Shown piece by piece: positions 1-11,438 of a stretch of 32,527 nucleotides of DNA; positions within the stretch are counted from its first letter, which is position 1; every line of letters begins with the position of its first letter. This DNA is from Bacteroidales bacterium. Lineage in GTDB: Bacteria > Bacteroidota > Bacteroidia > Bacteroidales > GWA2-32-17. The notes under the pieces were generated by a model. The model was not told the origin of the DNA. It was given only the letters and a program-made list of their open reading frames with translations, and did no database searches. The stretch is from NCBI GenBank assembly GCA_026416095.1, contig JAOAFV010000034.1, forward strand, positions 1 through 32,527, given 5' to 3'. The position numbers and the translations under genes are program-made.

Positions 1-1
1 C

Positions 2-478
2 ACTAGTAGTTATACAGGTAGTTGGGCTACGTGCGATCCATGCGGTAGCAGTGGTCGTCAGGGCATTTGTCCATCGGGGTTTCATATTCCGACTGATTTA
101 GAATTTAGCCGATACGAATGGTGTATAGAAACAACGATAAGCCCAACAGGTAGTACACCGCTATCAACATTTCAGACTACTACTTATTGGCGTGGTGATA
201 ATAGCGTTGCCGGTCCTGGTCATAAAATGAAAGTAACAAGTAGTCATTCTCCCAGTTGGGATGGTAGTAATGTCAGTGGTTTTACTGCACTCCCCTCCGG
301 TTATCGCGAAAACCTCGGTGTCTTCTACGGCCTTGGCGGCCACGCCGTCTTCTGGACTGCTACAGAGTATTCTCCTACCTACGCTTGGTACCGTGGCCTG
401 CTCACAGCCAACTATCAGAGCAACCGCACCATCAACTTCAAGACGTTCGGCCATTCGGTTCGCTGCCTTCAGAATTGA
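2..478 (+). CDS. FISUMP-domain protein, C-terminal part (DGR target), 5' truncated by window
   Basis: The reading frame is open from base 2 to the TGA at 476-478, so at least 158 residues of a larger protein are visible and its start lies outside the window. The features of the Fibrobacter succinogenes major paralogous (FISUMP) domain are present: GICPSGFHIPTDLEF near the left, FWTATEYS in the middle and a C-terminal GHSVRCLQN. FISUMP domains are C-type-lectin-like folds, usually on secreted or lipid-anchored surface proteins, and are frequent DGR targets in Bacteroidota. The C-terminal 60 or so residues hold the variable repeat that matches the template-like repeat downstream. The reverse transcriptase starts 85 bp further on, on the same strand. 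The role is inferred to be a surface ligand-binding protein whose C-terminus is diversified; the ligand is unknown. An internal ATG at 227 is not the start, because domain homology continues upstream of it. Confidence 0.85.
   Translation, partial: TSSYTGSWATCDPCGSSGRQGICPSGFHIPTDLEFSRYEWCIETTISPTGSTPLSTFQTTTYWRGDNSVAGPGHKMKVTSSHSPSWDGSNVSGFTALPSGYRENLGVFYGLGGHAVFWTATEYSPTYAWYRGLLTANYQSNRTINFKTFGHSVRCLQN
284..382 (+). repeat. DGR variable repeat (VR), homologous part
   Basis: This segment aligns without gaps to 2746-2844 (constant offset 2462). By hand count there are 23 mismatches in 99 positions, of which 14 fall on adenines of the downstream copy (29 adenines in total) and 9 on the other 70 bases. 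An uninterrupted identical block lies at 349-373. The changes fall mostly at first and second codon positions, turning AAC-type codons into codons for Tyr, Gly, His and Val. This is the pattern expected of adenine-specific mutagenic retrohoming. The variable region probably continues to the stop at 478, judging from mixed codons such as TAC, GGC, CTC, ACC, ATC and TTC set among conserved ones, but that part has no counterpart in the template-like copy. Confidence 0.85.
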
Positions 479-514
479 CAATTTGACTATTTTACTATTT
501 GTCTATTGGGGGGT

Positions 515-535
515 ATGGGGGGCTTTGCCCCCTAT
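515..535 (+). other. GC-rich hairpin 37 bp after the VR gene
   Basis: A perfect stem GGGGGC/GCCCCC (518-523 with 527-532) closes a TTT loop. One G-T pair plus two A/T pairs extend it to 515-523/527-535. It lies between the target-gene stop codon (478) and the reverse transcriptase (564). Known DGRs often have a DNA hairpin or cruciform just downstream of VR that stimulates retrohoming. The position and strength fit that role. It could also be a transcription attenuator, but no T-run follows it (the next bases are CGAAAAATAAATT), which argues against a simple intrinsic terminator. Confidence 0.5.
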
Positions 536-563
536 CGAAAAATAAATTATAAAAGAAAGAAAA

Positions 564-1700
564 ATGGAAAGAGAAAAAATAAAAGTAGATTTATACGAAA
601 CCTACAAAGAAGCTAAACGACATAAAAGGAACAAGGCAGAAGTAATTGAATTTGAAATAGAAGAACAGAAAAGCTTGTACAATTTGTTTGAGTTGTTGAT
701 AGAAAAACGATATGAGCCATTACCGTCAAAAGTATTTATAGTAGAGAAGCCTGTAAAACGTGAGGTATTTGCTGCTCAGTTTGTTGATCGTATTGTACAT
801 CATTTGTTAGTGCGGTACATAGGACCTATATTTGAGAGGCGAATGATAGATGACAGTTATAGTTGTCGGGTTGGAAAGGGGACATTGTATGGAATAAAAA
901 GGATGGCAAAATTTATGAGACAGTGCAGTAAAAATTATAGAGAAGATGCTTATGTAATGAAATTAGACATAGAAGGATATTTTATGAATATACATCGACC
1001 AACATTGCTAAAAATCGTTAAAGAAACGTTAGAAAGATATGCTAATGAATTGCTAACATACGTAGATAAGGAGTGGATTAAGTGGCTAAGTGAGGTGATA
1101 ATATTACACGACCCTACAAAGAATTGTATATACAGAAGCAATAAAAGAGCATGGCAAGATTTACCACGTAGCAAAAGTTTATTTTATACACCAAAAGATT
1201 GCGGTTTGCCAATAGGTAACTTAACTTCGCAATTATTTGCCAATGTATATTTAAATGCCATGGATTGGTATATTAAGAAAGAGCTTCGAATAAGATATTA
1301 TGGACGATACGTTGACGATTTTTGCCTGATGCATAAGAGCAAAGAATACTTATTAGAATGCAGAGAAAAGATAGACGATTTTTTACAAGTGCAGTTAAGA
1401 TTACGACTACATAGTCAAAAGTTCTATTTACAGCCTATACACGTTGGAGTAAAGTTTTTAGGAGCGTATATAAAGCCGTATCGCATATATGTAGGTAAAA
1501 GGATAAAAACAAATTTATGGCAATGCATCAAATCTTGGAATGAAAGGATAAATGAAAAGATGAAAATAGATGTATATTCGATGCGAAGTCAGATTCAATC
1601 ATATTTTGGCATGATAAAGCATTTTAATACTTATAGATTACAGCAAAAAATTATTCGTAGTAGTCATCCTATAATACAATATTATGCTATATCAAATTGA
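564..1700 (+). CDS. DGR-type reverse transcriptase
   Basis: This is a 378-residue group-II-intron-related reverse transcriptase, the usual size for DGR enzymes, with no maturase or endonuclease domain. Visible motifs in order are LDIEGYF (about 134-140, first catalytic Asp), LPIGNLTSQ (215-223), YVDD (249-252, the other catalytic Asp pair) and VKFLGAYI (about 295). The (I/V/L)GxxxSQ motif in place of QGxxxSP is the hallmark of the DGR clade and is linked to its low fidelity opposite template adenines. In known systems this enzyme, with Avd, copies the TR RNA into mutagenised cDNA that replaces the VR. The start ATG at 564 follows an A-rich stretch, with no Shine-Dalgarno site, as is typical for Bacteroidota. 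The MutS-like gene follows 6 bp after its stop. All catalytic residues are present, so the enzyme looks intact. Confidence 0.95.
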   Translation: MEREKIKVDLYETYKEAKRHKRNKAEVIEFEIEEQKSLYNLFELLIEKRYEPLPSKVFIVEKPVKREVFAAQFVDRIVHHLLVRYIGPIFERRMIDDSYSCRVGKGTLYGIKRMAKFMRQCSKNYREDAYVMKLDIEGYFMNIHRPTLLKIVKETLERYANELLTYVDKEWIKWLSEVIILHDPTKNCIYRSNKRAWQDLPRSKSLFYTPKDCGLPIGNLTSQLFANVYLNAMDWYIKKELRIRYYGRYVDDFCLMHKSKEYLLECREKIDDFLQVQLRLRLHSQKFYLQPIHVGVKFLGAYIKPYRIYVGKRIKTNLWQCIKSWNERINEKMKIDVYSMRSQIQSYFGMIKHFNTYRLQQKIIRSSHPIIQYYAISN

Positions 1701-1706
1701 CTGAAT

Positions 1707-2237
1707 ATGGTACCATTAAAAGAGAAATTAGACATAGAAAAAAATAATAAAAATAAGATAATTTTATACAAGGAAGGAGTGTTTTGGCGTGCATATGGTG
1801 TGTCGTGTTTATTGTTTTATAGATTGTTTCCCCATATAAAAGTATTAGCAAATAAGACATCAACAATAGGTTATGTTTTCATAGGTATACCTAATACGAA
1901 GATAGAAGAGTATCATCAGAAATTACTTGAAAAACAGGCATATTTTTGTAATGTAAAAGAACATGAGCAAGTACATGTACCAATGGAAAAATTAACCCTA
2001 AGAGAGTATATTCTAAATACTGAGATTGCGACTCACGAATATGAAGAGTTTTTGCATAATCAATTACACAAGCAAAAAGAGAAAGAAAAACCGACAAAGA
2101 TAGTCGTAGTAAGCGATGAGCGAATAGCATATGTGATACAAAAAATAAAATCCATAAATATTGAAAATTTGAAGCCCGTTGATGCATTGGTTGAATTGAA
2201 GGAGATAAAAGATTATATAAACGGATTAGGTATATAG
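1707..2237 (+). CDS. MutS-like (MSL) DGR accessory protein
   Basis: This 176-residue protein lies between the reverse transcriptase and avd. Its N-terminal half (about residues 15-75), with YKEGVFWRAYGVS followed by YVFIGIPNTKIEEY, resembles MutS domain I, the mismatch-contacting domain. Its C-terminus, NIENLKPVDALVELKEIKDY (about 152-171), resembles the short tail found at the end of MutS proteins. The lever, clamp and ATPase domains of MutS are absent. MutS-like accessory genes have been described in a subset of DGRs. Mismatch binding or recruitment during retrohoming is an inference from the domain, not an established function. A poorly conserved, Lys/Glu-rich linker (about 125-145) joins the two parts. 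The assignment rests on recognition by eye. The alternative is a DGR-specific protein with only fold-level similarity. Confidence 0.65.
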   Translation: MVPLKEKLDIEKNNKNKIILYKEGVFWRAYGVSCLLFYRLFPHIKVLANKTSTIGYVFIGIPNTKIEEYHQKLLEKQAYFCNVKEHEQVHVPMEKLTLREYILNTEIATHEYEEFLHNQLHKQKEKEKPTKIVVVSDERIAYVIQKIKSINIENLKPVDALVELKEIKDYINGLGI

Positions 2238-2241
2238 GAGG
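2236..2241 (+). promoter_or_regulatory. Shine-Dalgarno site for avd
   Basis: AGGAGG overlaps the TAG stop of the MutS-like gene and ends 6 nt before the avd ATG. A perfect Shine-Dalgarno sequence is uncommon in Bacteroidota, and most genes in this window have none. This suggests avd is translated independently, or that the cassette was imported. Confidence 0.5.
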
Positions 2242-2247
2242 TTAGGT

Positions 2248-2598
2248 ATGGCATTGGTTTATGAGTTGGATGTATATAAAAAGAGCTACGATTTACTAGT
2301 CAAGACATTTGAAGTGGTAAAGAATTTTAGACGCGAGTATAAATATACGTTAGGAGATAAAATAAAGAATGAGGTATTAGAAGTAATGCTTAATGTGTAT
2401 CGGGCAAATGTAAATGTTCAGAAAAGCATTCATATTCAGAGATCTCGGGAGCATATAGAAATGCTTAAGATTTTGTTTCGACTGAGCAAGGACTTGCGAT
2501 TGATCAATGTGGGACAGTATACACAGTTATTTTCGTTTACAGAAGAGATATCGAAGCAATTAGTATCGTGGCAGAAATGTGAAGAGAAACGCATATGA
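2248..2598 (+). CDS. avd: DGR accessory variability determinant (Avd)
   Basis: This 116-residue, all-helical protein begins MALVYELDVYKKSYDLLVK and continues with FEVVKNF, YTLGDKIKNEVLEVMLNVY and SREHIEMLKILFRLSKDL. That is the four-helix-bundle pattern shared by Avd proteins and the related 23S rRNA intervening-sequence proteins. In DGRs Avd forms a basic pentameric barrel that binds the reverse transcriptase and the TR RNA and is needed for mutagenic retrohoming. The length is normal for the family and the sequence is rich in Lys and Arg. Its position between the reverse transcriptase/MutS-like pair and the template-like repeat supports the assignment over a stand-alone four-helix protein. 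An AGGAGG ribosome-binding site precedes the ATG. Confidence 0.85.
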   Translation: MALVYELDVYKKSYDLLVKTFEVVKNFRREYKYTLGDKIKNEVLEVMLNVYRANVNVQKSIHIQRSREHIEMLKILFRLSKDLRLINVGQYTQLFSFTEEISKQLVSWQKCEEKRI

Positions 2599-2669
2599 AA
2601 CAGGAGCCGGCAATAGCTACGGCGTTGCCGGGAGTGTGGTCAGTTCCGTTGCCCACTTCTCATAGATAT

Positions 2670-2714
2670 GTGAAGTACTTTCACTCAGTGGATAGAGTAG
2701 ATCTGATTACTGAG
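2670..2714 (+). other. Paired inverted repeats between avd and the template-like repeat
   Basis: Two potential RNA stems lie side by side: GTGAA/TTCAC (2670-2674 with 2680-2684) and CTCAGT/ACTGAG (2684-2689 with 2709-2714). The stretch from 2599 to 2740 has stops in all likely frames and no recognisable coding content. In known DGRs the TR RNA includes flanking sequence bound by Avd and the reverse transcriptase. These stems could be part of that RNA, but short stems of this size also occur by chance. Confidence 0.3.
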
Positions 2715-2745
2715 CAATGTTTCGGTGGTCGGAGTAAGGAGTGGC

Positions 2746-2844
2746 AATGTAAATACCACCGGTTATCGCAACAACGGCGGTGGCTTCAACAACCTTGGCA
2801 GCAACGCCAACTTCTGGACTGCTACAGAGTATTCTGCTACTAAT
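2746..2844 (+). repeat. DGR template repeat (TR)-like segment, 3' truncated
   Basis: The segment is non-coding, on the same strand as the reverse transcriptase, and rich in AAC/AAT codons in the register of the VR (TR codons such as AAC AAC, AAC AAC, AGC AAC and GCC AAC). It aligns with 284-382. Homology stops abruptly near 2846, where the sequence becomes a TTTGCAAAG-type repeat, so the last 95 or so bases of the VR gene (383-478, including the conserved RCLQN-coding end where an IMH-like element would sit) have no match here. Nine of the 23 mismatches are not at adenines. Notably GGC at 2776-2778 and 2782-2784 faces CTC and GTC, whereas AAC would be expected in an intact template. It may be a decayed TR or a truncated former VR copy. 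Confidence 0.7.
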
Positions 2845-2850
2845 GCGTTT

Positions 2851-2869
2851 GCAAAGCCTTTTGCAAAGG
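2851..2869. terminator. Possible bidirectional stem-loop between DGR and kinase gene
   Basis: CCTTT/AAAGG (2857-2861 with 2865-2869) forms a short hairpin. It competes with GCAAA/TTTGC (2851-2855 with 2860-2864). The site lies between the convergent DGR and the minus-strand kinase gene, whose stop codon is at 2872-2874. The stems are short and lack a clear T-tract, so terminator function is only a guess from position. Confidence 0.25.
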
Positions 2870-2871
2870 TC

Positions 2872-3999
2872 TCATAATATAATTCTTAATGTTGTACCTT
2901 CGCCTATTTTCGACGATTTAACAAATATTTTGCCCTTATGATAAACTTCTATTATTCTTTTAACAAAAGTAAGTCCTAATCCCCAGCCTCGTTGTTTTGT
3001 GGTATAGCCTGGTTTAAATATTGTTTTATATTTTGAGCGAGGAATACCTTTACCAGTATCTGATATGTCAATAATTATTTTTTTGTTTTGTTTATGTGCC
3101 GATATTGTTATTGTACCTTTTCCGTTCATGGCATCGACAGCATTTTTAATTAAATTTTCGAAAACCCACTCGAATAATGTTTTATTTATAGTAACATAAA
3201 TGTTATTTGGTATATTCAAAATTATATTTATCGATGCTGGCATACGAGGTTGTAAGTAATCGATAGTTTTAGTGATTATATCTTTTAAATTAGTGTTTTC
3301 GAGAGTGGGCCGACTTCCTATTTTAGAAAAACGTTCGGCTATTTTGGATAAACGAGCAACATCGCTTTCTAGTTCATCAATTAACTGGTCCGAAAAGTTT
3401 TTATTTTTTATTAATTCAATTATAGCAGTCAACGAAGAAATAGGTGTACCTAATTGATGAGCGGTTTCTTTTGCCATTCCCATCCATAAAAAATTCTGTT
3501 CAGCTTTGCGAAATGAACTAAAAGCTATGTACGAAACAACAATATAAATAAGTATTATTGTTAAAAAAACGAGTGGAAAGTAATTCATTTTGTCGAGAAG
3601 TATTGAATCTCTATAATAAACATATTGTTTTGAATTCCCAAGATGTATTTCTATAGGTTGATAAGACTTTTTCATTCTTTTAAGTTCATTTAAAAGTTTT
3701 TTTGTTGGGTTCTGGTTAGTAGTGTCAATATTTCTAAAAGTTATAATATTGTCTTTTTCGTCGGTTACAATTACAGGTACTGTTTCGTTGTTTTTAATAA
3801 TATTAAAAAGAAAAGATATATCTTCGTCGGGGTTGGCCTTTGAAAGTTTTTCCATGGCTTCTGCCCATAGTTCGATTTTTTTTCTTTCTTCTTTTTTCAA
3901 GCTGTCTACTAAGCTTTTTGATAAATAAAGTATTGTTCCTGTTATAATTATTCCGACTAAAAGAATAATAATTTTATAATATAACTTCTTTGAATACAT
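2872..3999 (-). CDS. Membrane sensor histidine kinase (orphan)
   Basis: This 375-residue inner-membrane kinase has transmembrane segments at about 9-27 and 140-160 that enclose a sensor region of roughly 110 residues. The dimerisation/phosphoacceptor motif is KETAHQLGTP with His181. It is followed by an N-box (FENLIKNAVDAM, about 280-291), a G1 box (DISDTGKGIP, 311-320) and a G2 box (GWGLGL, 338-343), so the ATP-binding domain is complete. No response regulator lies nearby, so the partner is encoded elsewhere. Its ATG overlaps the sprA stop by one base (TAATG), implying translational coupling and placing it last in the valS-to-kinase operon. A role in controlling surface or type IX secretion functions is suggested only by this coupling. 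Confidence 0.9.
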   Translation of the reverse strand: MYSKKLYYKIIILLVGIIITGTILYLSKSLVDSLKKEERKKIELWAEAMEKLSKANPDEDISFLFNIIKNNETVPVIVTDEKDNIITFRNIDTTNQNPTKKLLNELKRMKKSYQPIEIHLGNSKQYVYYRDSILLDKMNYFPLVFLTIILIYIVVSYIAFSSFRKAEQNFLWMGMAKETAHQLGTPISSLTAIIELIKNKNFSDQLIDELESDVARLSKIAERFSKIGSRPTLENTNLKDIITKTIDYLQPRMPASINIILNIPNNIYVTINKTLFEWVFENLIKNAVDAMNGKGTITISAHKQNKKIIIDISDTGKGIPRSKYKTIFKPGYTTKQRGWGLGLTFVKRIIEVYHKGKIFVKSSKIGEGTTLRIIL

Positions 4000-6900
4000 T
4001 AAGGCACTAAACTGAACTTAACACTAAAGCCAAATTCTGCATTTATTGTTTCAAAAGTAGTGGAAACTAAAGGCTTACGCATATTTCTTCTCGCATATAA
4101 GCCAACAGTAAAACTTGGGCCAAGTTGATAATCGGCAGTAGCATCGATCATAAAACTTATATTTCCAGAGGTAATCTGATTTTGCTGAGTACCGTTTACT
4201 ATTTTACGTAAAATTGTAAAGTCGTGTCGCCGGGTTATATTTAACCTTATATTCAAATCGCTTTTAAATGTTTTTTCGTTAACTTTAATTACTAAATCTT
4301 TAAATCTATAGCCTGTACCTATAACAATATCGCGTGCTTGCATTTCGTTGACTTGTGTATTAGCGATATTTAAAGATATATTTTTGTTTCTTTTAAATTC
4401 TATATTAAACATTAGGCTATTTTTCATTACTGCATTTATACTTAAAAACGGAGCAAATTGCTCGGAAATTGTAATTGTTCCTATTTCGTATTGGGGAATA
4501 AAATCGCCTAACGATTGCCTTACCCAACTTAATCCATCGCCAATAGGAGAATATTCAATGTTTGTAGTAAATGAATTTATGTTATAAGTAGAACGGTAGC
4601 TATGTGTTAGTGTTATTGACGAAAAGTATTTTTTAATAATTTTAATGTCTGTTAATCCAGTAAAGTTTATACTCCAGTTAGGACTCATAAACAAAATGTT
4701 TAAGAATGGGCTAAGAGGAATTCTTTCGGGCGAAATACCTGAATAAGCCGATAGGAAAGCTGGAATAATAACATCTTGCGAGTTTGCACTATAACCATCG
4801 TAAAAGTGTGTTTGTAAATTTTGTGCACCAGTGTAATTAAAAGCTGCAGCATTTTCGTCTTGTGCCCTCTTTTCGGCAAGTCGTTTTGATATTCTTATTC
4901 TATAATTTATAAAATTTTCGAAAGTTTTAGAATAGAATCTTTCGTCGTATTTTTCGAAACTTGTTCGCCAAGTATTGAAAGACATTGAAAAACTACCCGT
5001 GTATAGTTTATTCTGAAATTCAAATTTTGAATTTGTTGCACTATACTGGAAAAGTTGCGAAAATCTTTGATTTTCTGTTCTACTGGCAGTAACATCTATT
5101 TTTAGAGTTCTTATTGGATTTATGTTTATTCTTACGTTTAAGCTTTTTGAATTTGACATTTGAAAAGGCGAATTAAGTATGCTGTCGGTTGTAAGCCAGT
5201 GGTAACGATTACCAGCAATATCGGCAAAACTTTCGTTTTGAGCACCTAAAATAAAAGGTAAGCCTGGAGCCCAGGTATTATTATAGTTTCTCAACCCCAA
5301 AAATTGCGTGCGAGGTAAATAACCTGGTAATATTGTTCCATCGTTTGTTGTGTACGAAACGCTAATACTTTTAATACCCATAAGAACGTATAATGTTCGT
5401 TCAAGTACTATAAGCAAAGGCTCTTCTTTTTTCTCTCTTTCGCCTGTTATTACTACTGTTACATTTTTATAATTACTATCGGTTTGGATAATTAATCTGT
5501 TTTCGTTAACAATTTTAGTAGAAAAATTAGTTATTTGCTGACCATTTTCTTTTGTTAGCTTAACTGTTACATTTTCGGTTTTTAGGTTATGTTTTATTGG
5601 TTTAGGTACATTGGCTTTTAAGTTAATTATATAAGGAGGATCGCCTTGTTTAGGAAATTGTACCTGTTCTTTTTCTTTTTTTGGTTTTTTTGGTGCACTA
5701 TACTTTTGATTTATTTTTTGTAGGTAAGAAATTTTTGTGTATAGATTAACCATATTAAAACTTGCACTGTTTTGAATATTTCTGCTATTTTTAATTGTAT
5801 TTCCTAAGGTTAGATTTTTATTGGCAAGTGAGGGCGAAGTTTGCCATTCGTACGAACCTCCATAGCGGGTACTTAAGCTTACCCAGTTAAATAATTTAAT
5901 TTTATTTATAGGAACATTGTATGTCAAATTAAAATCATGTCTATAAGTAAGAGTACGTCCGCCGTTTAATAAGCCCGAAGGACCATAAAGTACCGAATCT
6001 TTCCAGTGAGAATATGCTTCTCTATTGTTTTTATTAACTTCCATTCCATATTTAATAGGTTCGTCTATTATTGCATTGTTTAAGGCATTGAATTCGAATC
6101 GTAACGATCGAGTTAGATCGAAACGCATAGTGTATGAACGATTCCAGAAAAATGTTTTATTATATGTAGGTGGAAATTCAAGAGTAAAATCTTGTACATT
6201 CCTTAGTTTTGTAGCATTGTACGACCTATCGAAGTCGTTTATTATAGAAAATTGTGATGGTATATAATAGAAGTTAAAATCTTTTATTAGTCGCATTTTG
6301 TTAAATAATTTAGTTTTTTTAAAGGGTTCAACAATCTTTGGATTAGTATTAAAATTATATGCAATTTGTAGTCTATGGTTTTTACGTAAATCGTATTCGG
6401 TAGAAATATTACGCATGTATTGCTCAGAATATGCATAACCTAAAGTAAAATTGCTTATATGAACTGGATTAGGTTTTTTAGGAGTTTTATTGACCCTTAT
6501 ATTTGTTAAGTTAAAACTTTTTCTTTTGGTATAACTGCGTGCTAATCTTAAAATGCTATCTTTCTCAGATTGCGTTGCATTTTTTAACGCAATTTTTAAT
6601 TCAATATCGGGGTTAAGAGGGTTATATTGCGGAGTACTAAACGTTTCGTTATAGCCTATGAATACTGGTAAGGATATTTGCCATTCACTTGGGAAAAATT
6701 TACTCATATCTATGTTTGAAGATATATCGTAAGCATAAATATCTTCTTTTTGTCGTTCGTTAACTTTTTTTTCTATTGAACCAAACCCTCTTCGACTGGT
6801 ATTCCCACTTAAATTTATTTGTGCAAAATCGGCAAGTTTAGTTGTAGTGCGCACATTAGAAGCCCATCCTCCCTGATTATCGAAATCGGCCAAGCGTAAT

Positions 6901-9900
6901 TCATTAACCCATACTTCTACCGACTTAGGTAAACCATCGTCGGGATCGCGATTAGTATTTTTTGAGCGGTTTCTTATTCCAATCATAACAGTTTTAATAT
7001 TACTCAAATTGGGATTACCTTTTATCGACACACGTATGTTTTTATTGTATTCTTCAAAAAATTCGTAATATTCAGAAGTCATTGTTACGTTTTTATTTCC
7101 CATTCGCATTAGATCGTTTCGTTTTTGTTTAAGGCTTTGAAAAACATCAAAATCGACATCGAACATATTTTCTTGAGGCCAAACGATTTTTCGGTGTTCA
7201 TCATTATCTTTATCGTACGAACCGTATGGAGTAAGAGATAATGGGATTTCGTATTCATAATAGTTATTTTGGTAATCGCTTCCTATTCTTAAAAACACAC
7301 ATAAATCTTTATTGTTCAATGGATATCCGGCAATTGCTTCGGCATGAACAAACATTTGAATTTTTTTGTATTGTCTTACATCTAAATTAACATTTTTATA
7401 AACAGCCCGAGCATCGCCGTCTTGTAAGTTAATGACTTTCAGTAACATTGCTTGTTCGTTAAGTTCGCGAAGTTGAGGATTTGAAGGATCAATAACTCGC
7501 GATACTCCCGGGGGCAAAACATAATTAACTGGTTTTTTTGTGTAATTTTCTTCTATATTAACTGCCGATACATCAAAAGTAGCGTTTTCTATTTCATTTG
7601 GTACATATAATCCACCCTGAAGTAAATTGTCGGTATATTTTCGCCATTCCGAACGAACAATGTCAAGTTTTGCAAAACGTAGCACTACTTGCTTTTCGAA
7701 GCCTGTTAAAAACATTCGTATAAAACGAATAGATTTAAAATCTTGAATATTGCCCACAATGGTATCTGGTTTATTTAAAGGTATCCTGAACTGATACCAT
7801 TTAACAGGGTCGCCATTTTTATTTCTGCCAACAACCTCGTCTACTATATAATTTTTACCAATTTGCATTAATTCTGGTTTAAGGTGTATACGATATTGGA
7901 AATAATTTTCTGATTCGTTAAGAGTATTATCTCGGTTAATGTCTTCGGTATTTGGAGTTATTGAAGAAGCCGTAGAATAGTTTTCAGGTGATTGTTTATC
8001 GGTAGGGCTATTGCCTTCCATACCATTATAGTATTTATAACGATCGAGTATTCCTAGCAGTTGCTGATCGTAATCGGAGCCACGGTAATAGTGGTAATTA
8101 TCTTTTGATACATCTTTAAGAGCTTTCTGATATGCTAGACTATTTTCGCCAAATAAAGATTTAATACTATCGAGGTATGATTTAAAAAATTCTCGTTCCT
8201 GATTATCTTTCAGTCCGTCTAAGCCTATATCTTGGTAAGCTCGCGATTCTTCGTTATTATCGAAACCATTAACAACCGATTGTATTGTAGGCACATATCC
8301 CCAAGTTGTAGTATCAACTACAAGTGGATTTGCAGGGCTAGGAAAACCGTTTTCAAAACTTTTTCTTCCGTCTTTTAAGATGTCTTCACTAATGTCGCCA
8401 AGATTAAAATAAAGATAACCACCAGAATGTGTGGTATCGTAAACAAAGGGGTCCATTAGCCAGAACTCTATAAACTCATAGTTTGCTGCTTCAAAGTCGT
8501 TTGTTTGCAAAGGTCTCATAATGCCGTTCCATGACTTTTTGGGATTTTTAAGACGACCAAGACTATCTATATCAAGTGAGTAGTTATAAATACCTGGTTC
8601 GTTAGGGTAAAAAACAAGATTTAGGGTTTGAATATATGTTGGTTGTCCTGTTGGTAATTGTTTATTAGGCCATAATTCGGTTTCATGAACTTCGCGAGTA
8701 AAATGGTTTATAAGATCATTAGCAATGCCAGGTGGAGTTGAAGAGGAAGTACGATAAAATATTGTTTGATCTATTGAGAAAAACGACATGTGAGCTCTTT
8801 TAGAATTAAATTTTAAGTCGTTAAAAACAGATGCTTCGGGAAATAATCCTTGTTGCCCTTGTGGTGTGGAAGCGTAATACCAACCAGTAGCAGTTAATAA
8901 TGATAAGGGCGATTTAGCTCCTTCGAAATCGTCGATATAGGCAAGGCCTTTTTTGTCTATGATTTTATTATGTCCCGGAATTAGGTGAGCAAATTCGCCA
9001 AACACATTAAACCCCGATTGTGCTTTGGTTTCGATAAAAGGAAGTTTATCAACAAATTTTGTAAGCAATGGTAAATCTTTTTTATAACTTAAATCGAACC
9101 CCCATATGGTATTTGAAATTGGTTCATCTCCTATATTTACTTTTTGTGTTAACGGTCGCTCTGTAAGGTTAATTATAGTTGCTCCAATACTAAAGTCTTT
9201 ATTAAATTCGTAAAGTAAATTAGTTCCAACTAGGGTTTTACTTTGTATACTGAATAACGACCTGTTCTCTAAAGAAATTTTAATAGGCAAACCCGACTGT
9301 AAAATACCCTGATTAATAATTTTTACTTTTCCCATTGTATAATCGACAGTGTAATCGATGTTTTCCTGGAGTATTTGTCCGCCAGCAGTTACTTTTACTG
9401 AACCTTCGGGAATATTTATAGCATTTAAAGATATTTCGTTGCCAGCTGCTGATTTATATTGCCCTTTTAAAAAAAATTTATTTTTTTCACTTACTTGTTG
9501 AGCTTTGCTTTGCGTTGAATCGTATAATTCGGTAAATGCATATTTTTGAGCTAACTCGGTGTTTACAGCAGGATTATTGCCTATTATTTTTTTGGCTAAA
9601 TGCCGGCCAAAAGGTTCAACAACAGGAAAAATTATCCTTCCGTTTTGCTGGTTAACAGTAATTTTGTCAATAAAATCGAAAAAGCCATCTTTATAAGGTT
9701 CAAGATTTTGGTTAAGTCGATCTAAATTCATAACTTCTAATAGGCGTAAATCTTTAATATCGCCATATGGTAATTGTGGAGTAGCAATTCCGGTTAAATC
9801 GTTCTGATAAAAAATATCGAGTTTAAAGTCTTCTTTATTTATCTGATATGCTCCTATTGAGTAAATATTTTTCATCATTAATTTCCACAAAGGATGTTTA

Positions 9901-11438
9901 GGACTAAGAGATGCTGGTTTTACCAATTTAACAATTAACGTTTTTGGAGATGGTACCGATGATGCAAATTCTCCTACTCTGTATACTTTACCACCAACAG
10001 TATATTCATATGCAACTGCAAGAATTTCGTCGGCATTAAGAGCAAAGTTTAAGGAAATGTAACCTAAATTTGGGTTAAACGTATATTCAGAAGGACTAAG
10101 CATACGCATTGATTCAACTTTTTCAAAATCCTTACCTTGTACAAACCCATATTGTTGAAGTACACTTGAAGCTTTTGTAATATCGCGAATATCGGGCAAT
10201 ACATATTCTATGGTAGATAATGAATTTATTGTATCGGATGGATAATTACTAACGCCAAGATTAAGGTTCACTAGCGGAGACGATATATTAAGTGATCCGT
10301 CGGGAGCAAGGCCTTCGCCCAAATCGGAAAAAGCTACTATATTGCGTGTATCTGTTGTATTTCCTTGTTTATTTGTTATCCAAACTTCGATTCTGTTTAT
10401 TGTAATTCCACCACCAATTACGGGAAGATTTTCGAGAAATTTGTCGTAATTGTCGTAAAAAAATTTGTTCAAAAAAAAGTGTCGATTAGCTTCGTATTCA
10501 TCAGCAGAAACTTCAAAATCGTTAACAATTGCCCCACCTTGAATTTCCATTACTTGAGTTTTACCTTTTTGTTGAGCAAACATTGTTGAAACAAATAATT
10601 TCCCAAATTGAAGTTGGGTTTTAATTCCAAATAAGCTATAGCTACCTTGTATTAATGAACCACGTAAAGGCAAACTAACGTCGCCAGCTTCAATTTTTTT
10701 TATGATTTCGTCTTCTTTACCTTCGTAAGCAAGTTTCATTTTGTTTTCAAACTCGAAGGTAGCTTCTGTGTTAAAATTAGTTGTTAATTTAAGTTTATCA
10801 CCAATCTGACCAACAACACTCATTTGAATTTTTTCGTTAAAATCGAAAGTAGTAGATCTTCTTTCTTTTACAGGTAAAGCATTATTTTTAGTATGTTGAT
10901 ACCTTAGTCCAAATGTTAATTCAGCAAATCCTTGGGGTCTAATATCAATAATATTTGTGCCGAAAATTTGTTCAAATACTTCACTTGGAACTTTTAATTG
11001 AGGAATGATACTCGACTTATGTTCAAAATTTTCAGAAGCAAATCTTTGTCGCCAATAATTTTTTAGAGCATTATCAAATTTTTCTTTTTTATATTCTTCG
11101 AAAGAATACACTTGAGGGTAGCGATAATGAAAATTTCCTATTTTTTCGCTTATAATAACTTCATTATCTTTAAGATTAAGTTCTTCTTCGGTTTTTATAT
11201 TTGATGGTTTTTTTAGGTATAGTTTTGATTCGTATCCTTTATTAGTTCCAGGCAAAAAGTCTTGGTCTGTAAAGGGATAAGGTAATATTATGGAATCGGG
11301 TTTTCCTGTATCAGGTGGAGTAGTATAAATTTTATTATGATTAGAATTTGGCTGTATTATTAAAATGGGTGAAGAAAGCCAAAAAATACTACTTAAAGTA
11401 AAAGAAAGGTAAATGATATTTAAAAATAAGCGATTCAA
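3999..11438 (-). CDS. sprA: Cell-surface protein SprA, type IX secretion translocon
   Basis: At 2479 residues this is by far the largest gene here and the usual length for SprA, the giant outer-membrane beta-barrel that forms the conducting channel of the type IX secretion system in Bacteroidota. A hydrophobic signal-like N-terminus (MNRLFLNIIYLSFTLSSIFW) is followed by an alternation of beta-rich periplasmic and strand-forming segments. The C-terminus, GFSVKFSLVP, is an aromatic-ending outer-membrane strand. The start is a TTG at 11438: it follows ruvA by 5 bp and no in-frame ATG lies between the ruvA end and the signal segment. The ruvA-sprA neighbourhood is common in this phylum. No frameshift or truncation was seen. 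Partners of the secretion system, such as the gld genes, are not in the window. Confidence 0.95.
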   Translation of the reverse strand: MNRLFLNIIYLSFTLSSIFWLSSPILIIQPNSNHNKIYTTPPDTGKPDSIILPYPFTDQDFLPGTNKGYESKLYLKKPSNIKTEEELNLKDNEVIISEKIGNFHYRYPQVYSFEEYKKEKFDNALKNYWRQRFASENFEHKSSIIPQLKVPSEVFEQIFGTNIIDIRPQGFAELTFGLRYQHTKNNALPVKERRSTTFDFNEKIQMSVVGQIGDKLKLTTNFNTEATFEFENKMKLAYEGKEDEIIKKIEAGDVSLPLRGSLIQGSYSLFGIKTQLQFGKLFVSTMFAQQKGKTQVMEIQGGAIVNDFEVSADEYEANRHFFLNKFFYDNYDKFLENLPVIGGGITINRIEVWITNKQGNTTDTRNIVAFSDLGEGLAPDGSLNISSPLVNLNLGVSNYPSDTINSLSTIEYVLPDIRDITKASSVLQQYGFVQGKDFEKVESMRMLSPSEYTFNPNLGYISLNFALNADEILAVAYEYTVGGKVYRVGEFASSVPSPKTLIVKLVKPASLSPKHPLWKLMMKNIYSIGAYQINKEDFKLDIFYQNDLTGIATPQLPYGDIKDLRLLEVMNLDRLNQNLEPYKDGFFDFIDKITVNQQNGRIIFPVVEPFGRHLAKKIIGNNPAVNTELAQKYAFTELYDSTQSKAQQVSEKNKFFLKGQYKSAAGNEISLNAINIPEGSVKVTAGGQILQENIDYTVDYTMGKVKIINQGILQSGLPIKISLENRSLFSIQSKTLVGTNLLYEFNKDFSIGATIINLTERPLTQKVNIGDEPISNTIWGFDLSYKKDLPLLTKFVDKLPFIETKAQSGFNVFGEFAHLIPGHNKIIDKKGLAYIDDFEGAKSPLSLLTATGWYYASTPQGQQGLFPEASVFNDLKFNSKRAHMSFFSIDQTIFYRTSSSTPPGIANDLINHFTREVHETELWPNKQLPTGQPTYIQTLNLVFYPNEPGIYNYSLDIDSLGRLKNPKKSWNGIMRPLQTNDFEAANYEFIEFWLMDPFVYDTTHSGGYLYFNLGDISEDILKDGRKSFENGFPSPANPLVVDTTTWGYVPTIQSVVNGFDNNEESRAYQDIGLDGLKDNQEREFFKSYLDSIKSLFGENSLAYQKALKDVSKDNYHYYRGSDYDQQLLGILDRYKYYNGMEGNSPTDKQSPENYSTASSITPNTEDINRDNTLNESENYFQYRIHLKPELMQIGKNYIVDEVVGRNKNGDPVKWYQFRIPLNKPDTIVGNIQDFKSIRFIRMFLTGFEKQVVLRFAKLDIVRSEWRKYTDNLLQGGLYVPNEIENATFDVSAVNIEENYTKKPVNYVLPPGVSRVIDPSNPQLRELNEQAMLLKVINLQDGDARAVYKNVNLDVRQYKKIQMFVHAEAIAGYPLNNKDLCVFLRIGSDYQNNYYEYEIPLSLTPYGSYDKDNDEHRKIVWPQENMFDVDFDVFQSLKQKRNDLMRMGNKNVTMTSEYYEFFEEYNKNIRVSIKGNPNLSNIKTVMIGIRNRSKNTNRDPDDGLPKSVEVWVNELRLADFDNQGGWASNVRTTTKLADFAQINLSGNTSRRGFGSIEKKVNERQKEDIYAYDISSNIDMSKFFPSEWQISLPVFIGYNETFSTPQYNPLNPDIELKIALKNATQSEKDSILRLARSYTKRKSFNLTNIRVNKTPKKPNPVHISNFTLGYAYSEQYMRNISTEYDLRKNHRLQIAYNFNTNPKIVEPFKKTKLFNKMRLIKDFNFYYIPSQFSIINDFDRSYNATKLRNVQDFTLEFPPTYNKTFFWNRSYTMRFDLTRSLRFEFNALNNAIIDEPIKYGMEVNKNNREAYSHWKDSVLYGPSGLLNGGRTLTYRHDFNLTYNVPINKIKLFNWVSLSTRYGGSYEWQTSPSLANKNLTLGNTIKNSRNIQNSASFNMVNLYTKISYLQKINQKYSAPKKPKKEKEQVQFPKQGDPPYIINLKANVPKPIKHNLKTENVTVKLTKENGQQITNFSTKIVNENRLIIQTDSNYKNVTVVITGEREKKEEPLLIVLERTLYVLMGIKSISVSYTTNDGTILPGYLPRTQFLGLRNYNNTWAPGLPFILGAQNESFADIAGNRYHWLTTDSILNSPFQMSNSKSLNVRININPIRTLKIDVTASRTENQRFSQLFQYSATNSKFEFQNKLYTGSFSMSFNTWRTSFEKYDERFYSKTFENFINYRIRISKRLAEKRAQDENAAAFNYTGAQNLQTHFYDGYSANSQDVIIPAFLSAYSGISPERIPLSPFLNILFMSPNWSINFTGLTDIKIIKKYFSSITLTHSYRSTYNINSFTTNIEYSPIGDGLSWVRQSLGDFIPQYEIGTITISEQFAPFLSINAVMKNSLMFNIEFKRNKNISLNIANTQVNEMQARDIVIGTGYRFKDLVIKVNEKTFKSDLNIRLNITRRHDFTILRKIVNGTQQNQITSGNISFMIDATADYQLGPSFTVGLYARRNMRKPLVSTTFETINAEFGFSVKFSLVP

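Follow-up and report, generated by a model that had tools for sequence, protein, structure and literature searches.

A probable cellular Bacteroidota-type DGR with a truncated template repeat in a Bacteroidales genome

Does a contig end that carries a lectin-type target gene, a reverse transcriptase (RT), two accessory genes and a partial second copy of the target's 3' end hold a complete diversity-generating retroelement (DGR)? The question is raised by the window analyzed here, a stretch of 32,527 nucleotides that makes up the entire contig C55 (JAOAFV010000034.1) of the Bacteroidales assembly GCA_026416095.1 (2.46 Mb, 62 contigs, 96.9% complete). The first-pass annotation had described a complete DGR set next to sprA. 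While the parts are all present (Table 1), the template repeat (TR) is without its 3' half, the target is without its 5' end, and sprA lies one gene away. The locus is best explained as a cellular Bacteroidota-type DGR whose template has been cut short, a reading in which we have good confidence; that the loss of template is real and recent is favored with rather less assurance.

Table 1. Features of the DGR locus and its flank, in window coordinates.
Feature	Position	Strand	Remarks
FISUMP target gene, C-terminal part	2..478	+	PF09603, TIGR02145; 5' end off contig
Variable repeat (VR)	294..478	+	Template counterpart now for 294-383 only
25-nt block, VR = TR	349..373	+	Identical in both repeats
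Hairpin GGGGGC-TTT-GCCCCC	518..532	+	40 nt past the target's stop
DGR-type reverse transcriptase (RT)	564..1700	+	378 aa, open frame, LPIGNLTSQ and YVDD
MSL, accessory protein with MutS domain I	1707..2237	+	PF01624
Avd	2248..2598	+	PF22296, PHROG 3206
Leader, Avd to TR	2599..2755	+	Usual length
Truncated template repeat (TR), 5' half only	2756..2847	+	Alignments to VR and relatives
Palindromic intergenic repeat, partial copy at break	2848..2871	-	Dispersed family
Sensor histidine kinase gene, sprA neighbourhood, outside DGR	2872..3999	-	Domain matches
sprA	3999..11438	-	TIGR04189; one histidine kinase gene away from DGR

The cassette reads target-RT-MSL-Avd-TR with every part on the forward strand, and the analysis bore out the identities first proposed for these parts, namely a FISUMP target, an RT with both of its motifs, a MutS-like protein, an Avd and a same-strand repeat. 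The FISUMP domain of the target, a surface-type protein, was matched by PF09603 (E 2.1e-15) and by TIGR02145 (E 6.7e-14), and the VR ends at the stop codon of this target, which is of lectin type by its domain match; Fib_succ_major DGR targets are already on record (PMC4159848). The RT matched PHROG 1423 (E 6.3e-94). MSL is named as a DGR accessory protein with Pfam PF01624 (PMC10053308), and the protein of the window matched that family at E 4.3e-6 (27.4 bits against a cut-off of 20.6). Avd scored above the cut-off of PF22296 (E 4.1e-15) and matched PHROG 3206, "Avd protein of DGR" (E 2.8e-21), yet with the NCBIfam model DivGenRetAVD (E 2.8e-16) it reached 59.7 bits and so stayed below the cut-off of 80. 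The distance from the last codon of Avd to the TR is 161 nt, and in relatives it is mostly 104-288 nt. The hairpin downstream of the target might possibly be the counterpart of the BPP-1 target hairpin, a weak parallel, as the same loose test found a hairpin 3' of the VR in just 33 of 69 relatives, at varying distances, and does not discriminate. When the rest of the genome was searched for a second RT, VR/TR or IMH, only those of the window itself were found. A phage origin was rejected, the best phage RT being just 39.4% identical. A scan of viral_contigs with the RT, of a kind that finds close relatives only, gave no match, and exact 24-mers of the TR and of the junction occurred there 0 times. 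Of the flanking proteins 13 were scanned; 11 of these matched a cellular-type family and 2 matched no family.

The repeat had been placed at 250-478 and 2599-2870. It is real, but it could be aligned only between VR 294-383 and TR 2756-2845, an ungapped match with 73 of 90 positions identical that is beyond chance in a search of the organism's own genome (E 1.6e-19). Outside this match identity fell to 24/95 for VR 384-478 and 10/24 for VR 270-293, and local alignment of VR 384-478 with the sequence after the TR was no better than that of shuffled sequences, 203 of 500 of which reached it. Changes in the VR were concentrated at template adenines: 9 of 21 adenines against 5 of 64 other bases over VR 294-378 (Fisher p 6.5e-4), 10/23 against 7/67 over 294-383 (p 1.2e-3) and 17/33 against 14/81 over 270-383 (p 3.3e-4). 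The VR carries adenine-directed change, and the earlier claim that the C-terminus of the target has been diversified in this way stands. A hand count of 14 of 29 adenines against 9 of 70 other bases had pointed in the right direction. The bias of this pair is weaker than usual for DGRs. While DGR pairs overwhelmingly have at least 75% of mismatches at template adenines (PMC8144416), here 10 of 17 mismatches faced a template adenine over 294-383 and 9 of 14 over 294-378, and the pair failed our own stricter pair filter.

To set the template against those of relatives, 92 loci were examined: 12 regions, together with the 80 best out of at least 586. These gave 70 TR/VR pairs, 20 loci without a pair by the filter, some of them probably cut by a contig end, and 2 duplicates. 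Among the 70 pairs, whose loci include near-relatives of each other, the TR match was 112-222 nt long (median 183) and by automated count reached the target's stop in 67, meaning that the stop codon ended no more than 75 nt before the match did and no more than 10 nt beyond it. In two of the three exceptions the script had picked the wrong frame, the right-frame stops lying at +10 and +3. The third also has a stop where the repeat ends, but in a frame other than the one chosen, and its VR copy looks frameshifted. At 8992-9146 of locus L140 lies a VR copy that exceeds its own template by two bases and is apparently frameshifted. In the window the match stops 95 nt before the target's stop, at about 2847. 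While 11 of 11 relatives' TRs aligned with that of the window extend as far as the target gene itself, the TR of the window stops half way, and a search of the assembly for another copy of the VR/TR 3' end (the IMH* end) found none. As assembled, the TR is without about half its length, including the IMH* end. With all 70 pairs pooled, differences were counted at 1459 of 3691 adenines of the templates and at 105 of their 8237 other bases. The non-adenine divergence of the window (5/64) is higher than this pooled figure (p 0.0014) and exceeds that of every one of the 70 pairs (highest 0.070), a contrast in drift that is exaggerated by the filter, which demands few non-adenine changes and favors clean pairs.

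The half of the VR that now has no template was compared with a column consensus drawn from 42 of the 70 TRs, those of at least 180 nt, from relatives at roughly 45% RT identity. Up to position 383 the VR differed from this consensus at 9 of 16 adenine columns and 3 of 26 others (p 0.003), and from 384 to 478 at 11 of 19 adenine columns and 2 of 22 others (p 0.001). Because VR 384-478 differs mainly at columns where the templates of relatives have adenine, a longer template most likely once existed, and the VR would have been diversified along its whole length. A full-length TR would at one time have supplied the RNA template, which the RT together with Avd would have copied with errors opposite adenines, and the cDNA would then have taken the place of the target's entire C-terminal VR. 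At a later time the TR would have lost its 3' half with the IMH* and any spacer beyond it, the break falling, on this proposal, at an intergenic palindromic repeat that adjoins the kinase gene of the sprA neighbourhood. Because RT, MSL and Avd all keep an open frame, the loss should either be recent or be a fault of the assembly.

At about 2847 the TR runs into the partial copy of the palindromic repeat. The stop codon of the kinase gene follows 24 nt past the TR, and all of those 24 nt belong to the repeat. With up to 3 mismatches allowed, the 24-nt junction pattern had 13 matches at 11 distinct places in the genome, every one of the 11 outside long open frames, and the junction copy itself occurred exactly once in the assembly. 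The family has the form GACCTTTGCAAAA-NN-TTTTGCAAAGGTC. The full palindrome was found at 19 places in this genome at up to 3 mismatches and was not found in three congeners. Compared with its counterparts in five relatives, the kinase gene is about three codons short at its end. Three genomes of the same genus gave no RT match, yet no clean empty site; the kinase gene was found in two of the three, and the sequence downstream of it differs there. In BPP-1, cDNA synthesis starts in the IMH* at the 3' end of the TR with priming from the spacer that follows, RT and Avd being recruited by that spacer, and both IMH* and spacer are needed (PMC12875486). With the IMH* absent and just 24 nt between the TR and the kinase stop, the element should by analogy be silent in cis as assembled, the need for IMH* and spacer being known from BPP-1 only.

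Whether the truncation is real depends on how far the assembly can be trusted at this point. It is possible, though we think it the poorer bet, that the DGR is intact and working and that its TR was wrongly joined or cut back at the palindrome during assembly. The target paralogues, the VR copies and the TR have sequence in common, the enzyme frames are as open as a working element would have them, and related target-gene pieces were found at other contig ends. Those on C2 (L149, 1-1401) and C60 (L163, 7763-8581), each with a fibronectin III domain, stop at the contig end just before the VR part, and C28 carries an N-terminal piece at its end (L164, 2-580). The first 19 nt of L149, at the end of C2, look like leftover library adapter. 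Because C2 ends in such adapter-like sequence, the contig ends of this assembly deserve caution, and since the target pieces too are cut off where their contigs stop, the assembly could lack a full template that the genome has. The ends of C2 and C55 have no exact overlap of at least 9 nt, and the tests made among C55, C60, C28 and C2 gave none of at least 8 nt. The C55 fragment differs from the C2 and C60 pieces across the overlaps, and by their sequences the three look like two or three paralogues, unless strains are mixed. On C2 a LytTR-domain gene (PF04397, E 4e-13) lies in front of the target, and on C60 a small gene that looks similar by eye. Against a fault of assembly, the junction is continuous sequence with a repeat copy that is exact only once, and the shortened end of the kinase gene fits a real breakpoint. 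A real loss is supported by this continuity, by the open RT, MSL and Avd frames and by the high non-adenine divergence.

Far less probable is that the half template still works, with the identical 25-nt block standing in for the IMH and diversification confined to the first half of the VR. While the adenine-biased change lies in 294-383 and the block is near the present end of the TR, no such cut is seen in any of the 70 related pairs (67 by count, with 3 explained), the 24 nt to the kinase stop leave no room for a spacer, and the non-adenine divergence is high.

That the locus is no DGR at all, with a chance duplicate of the end of a FISUMP gene lying next to an RT of group II intron or defence type, can be set aside with near certainty, for although the RT is matched by NCBIfam models for group II, retron and Drt3a (TIGR04416 best, with E 1.7e-29) and PADLOC gave 48 RT-type matches, the NCBIfam matches are far under their cut-offs (103 against 300 bits), and the Avd, the MSL, the adenine bias and the placement of the RT all speak against it. 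In profile comparison the best solved relative of the RT was 8ub7 (E 3.7e-42), which we take to be the BPP-1 enzyme, followed by a group II maturase (4.5e-16). In a tree of 47 selected rows made by a quick method, in which L066 and L121 are under half filled and 16 of 44 inner branches are open, the window falls in the starred clade (98) of 34 RTs. The other 33 comprise 25 from loci with a detected adenine-biased TR/VR pair and 8 from loci without one, and outside the clade are 12 other RTs and the BPP-1 bRT, the latter on a long branch of uncertain position. The RT thus groups with those of loci with clearly adenine-biased TR/VR pairs, and is of the DGR type.

The locus is a DGR by descent and, apart from the cut template, an ordinary one of the known Bacteroidota type. 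Should the truncation be real, a DGR has been caught soon after the loss of its template with its enzyme genes still open, and its VR, which must now drift, is a natural control for a VR after diversification stops. If it is not real, the locus is one more Bacteroidota-type DGR. Were the half template to work, it would start without the usual IMH* and spacer, and the second half of the binding surface would be frozen. The presence of all the gene names does not make a complete element, and the 3' end of the template needs checking.

With respect to gene order, the observation that it differs from that of Bordetella phage BPP-1 (mtd, avd, TR, brt) was correct. Among the 70 loci the orders included VR-Avd-TR-RT (42), VR-MSL-Avd-TR-RT (11) and VR-MSL-RT-Avd-TR (2); the window's order, VR-RT-MSL-Avd-TR, was found in 0 of 70 and is a rotation of VR-MSL-Avd-TR-RT. 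DGRs require no strict gene order (PMC3521204), and 122 cassette patterns have been reported (PMC6642488). Variable order and MSL being already described, the order of the window is unremarkable in itself. The DGRs of order VR-MSL-Avd-TR-RT, from Bacteroidota and others (such as L077, L081 and L097), have the same protein set and a VR at the target's 3' end, but their TR is full-length and lies upstream of the RT, while the window's is cut and its order rotated. In L129 (Desulfocapsa) and L130 (Balneolaceae), of order VR-MSL-RT-Avd-TR, the TR comes last, after Avd, as in the window, but RT and MSL are swapped and the TR matches, of 137 and 183 nt, reach the stop codon. BPP-1 (NC_005357) shares with the window the RT, Avd, TR and a VR at the target's 3' end, and differs in being phage-borne, in its 134-nt TR and in having no MSL annotated in the stretch. 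The DiGReF survey describes apparently inactivated DGRs and "sloppy" repeats with several non-adenine changes (PMC3521204); in those degenerate elements the RT is broken or the repeat sloppy, whereas in the window the template end is lost and the RT frame is open. A literature search at the level of titles, which proves little, turned up no half-template DGR by title. Six small RTs from within the same order (L014, L018, L022, L023, L024 and L030) lie outside the main DGR clade and near the BPP-1 bRT with weak support; five of them have an SQ motif of the GNLTSQ/GSLSSQ/GNYLSQ type, and L030 has VYPSQ.
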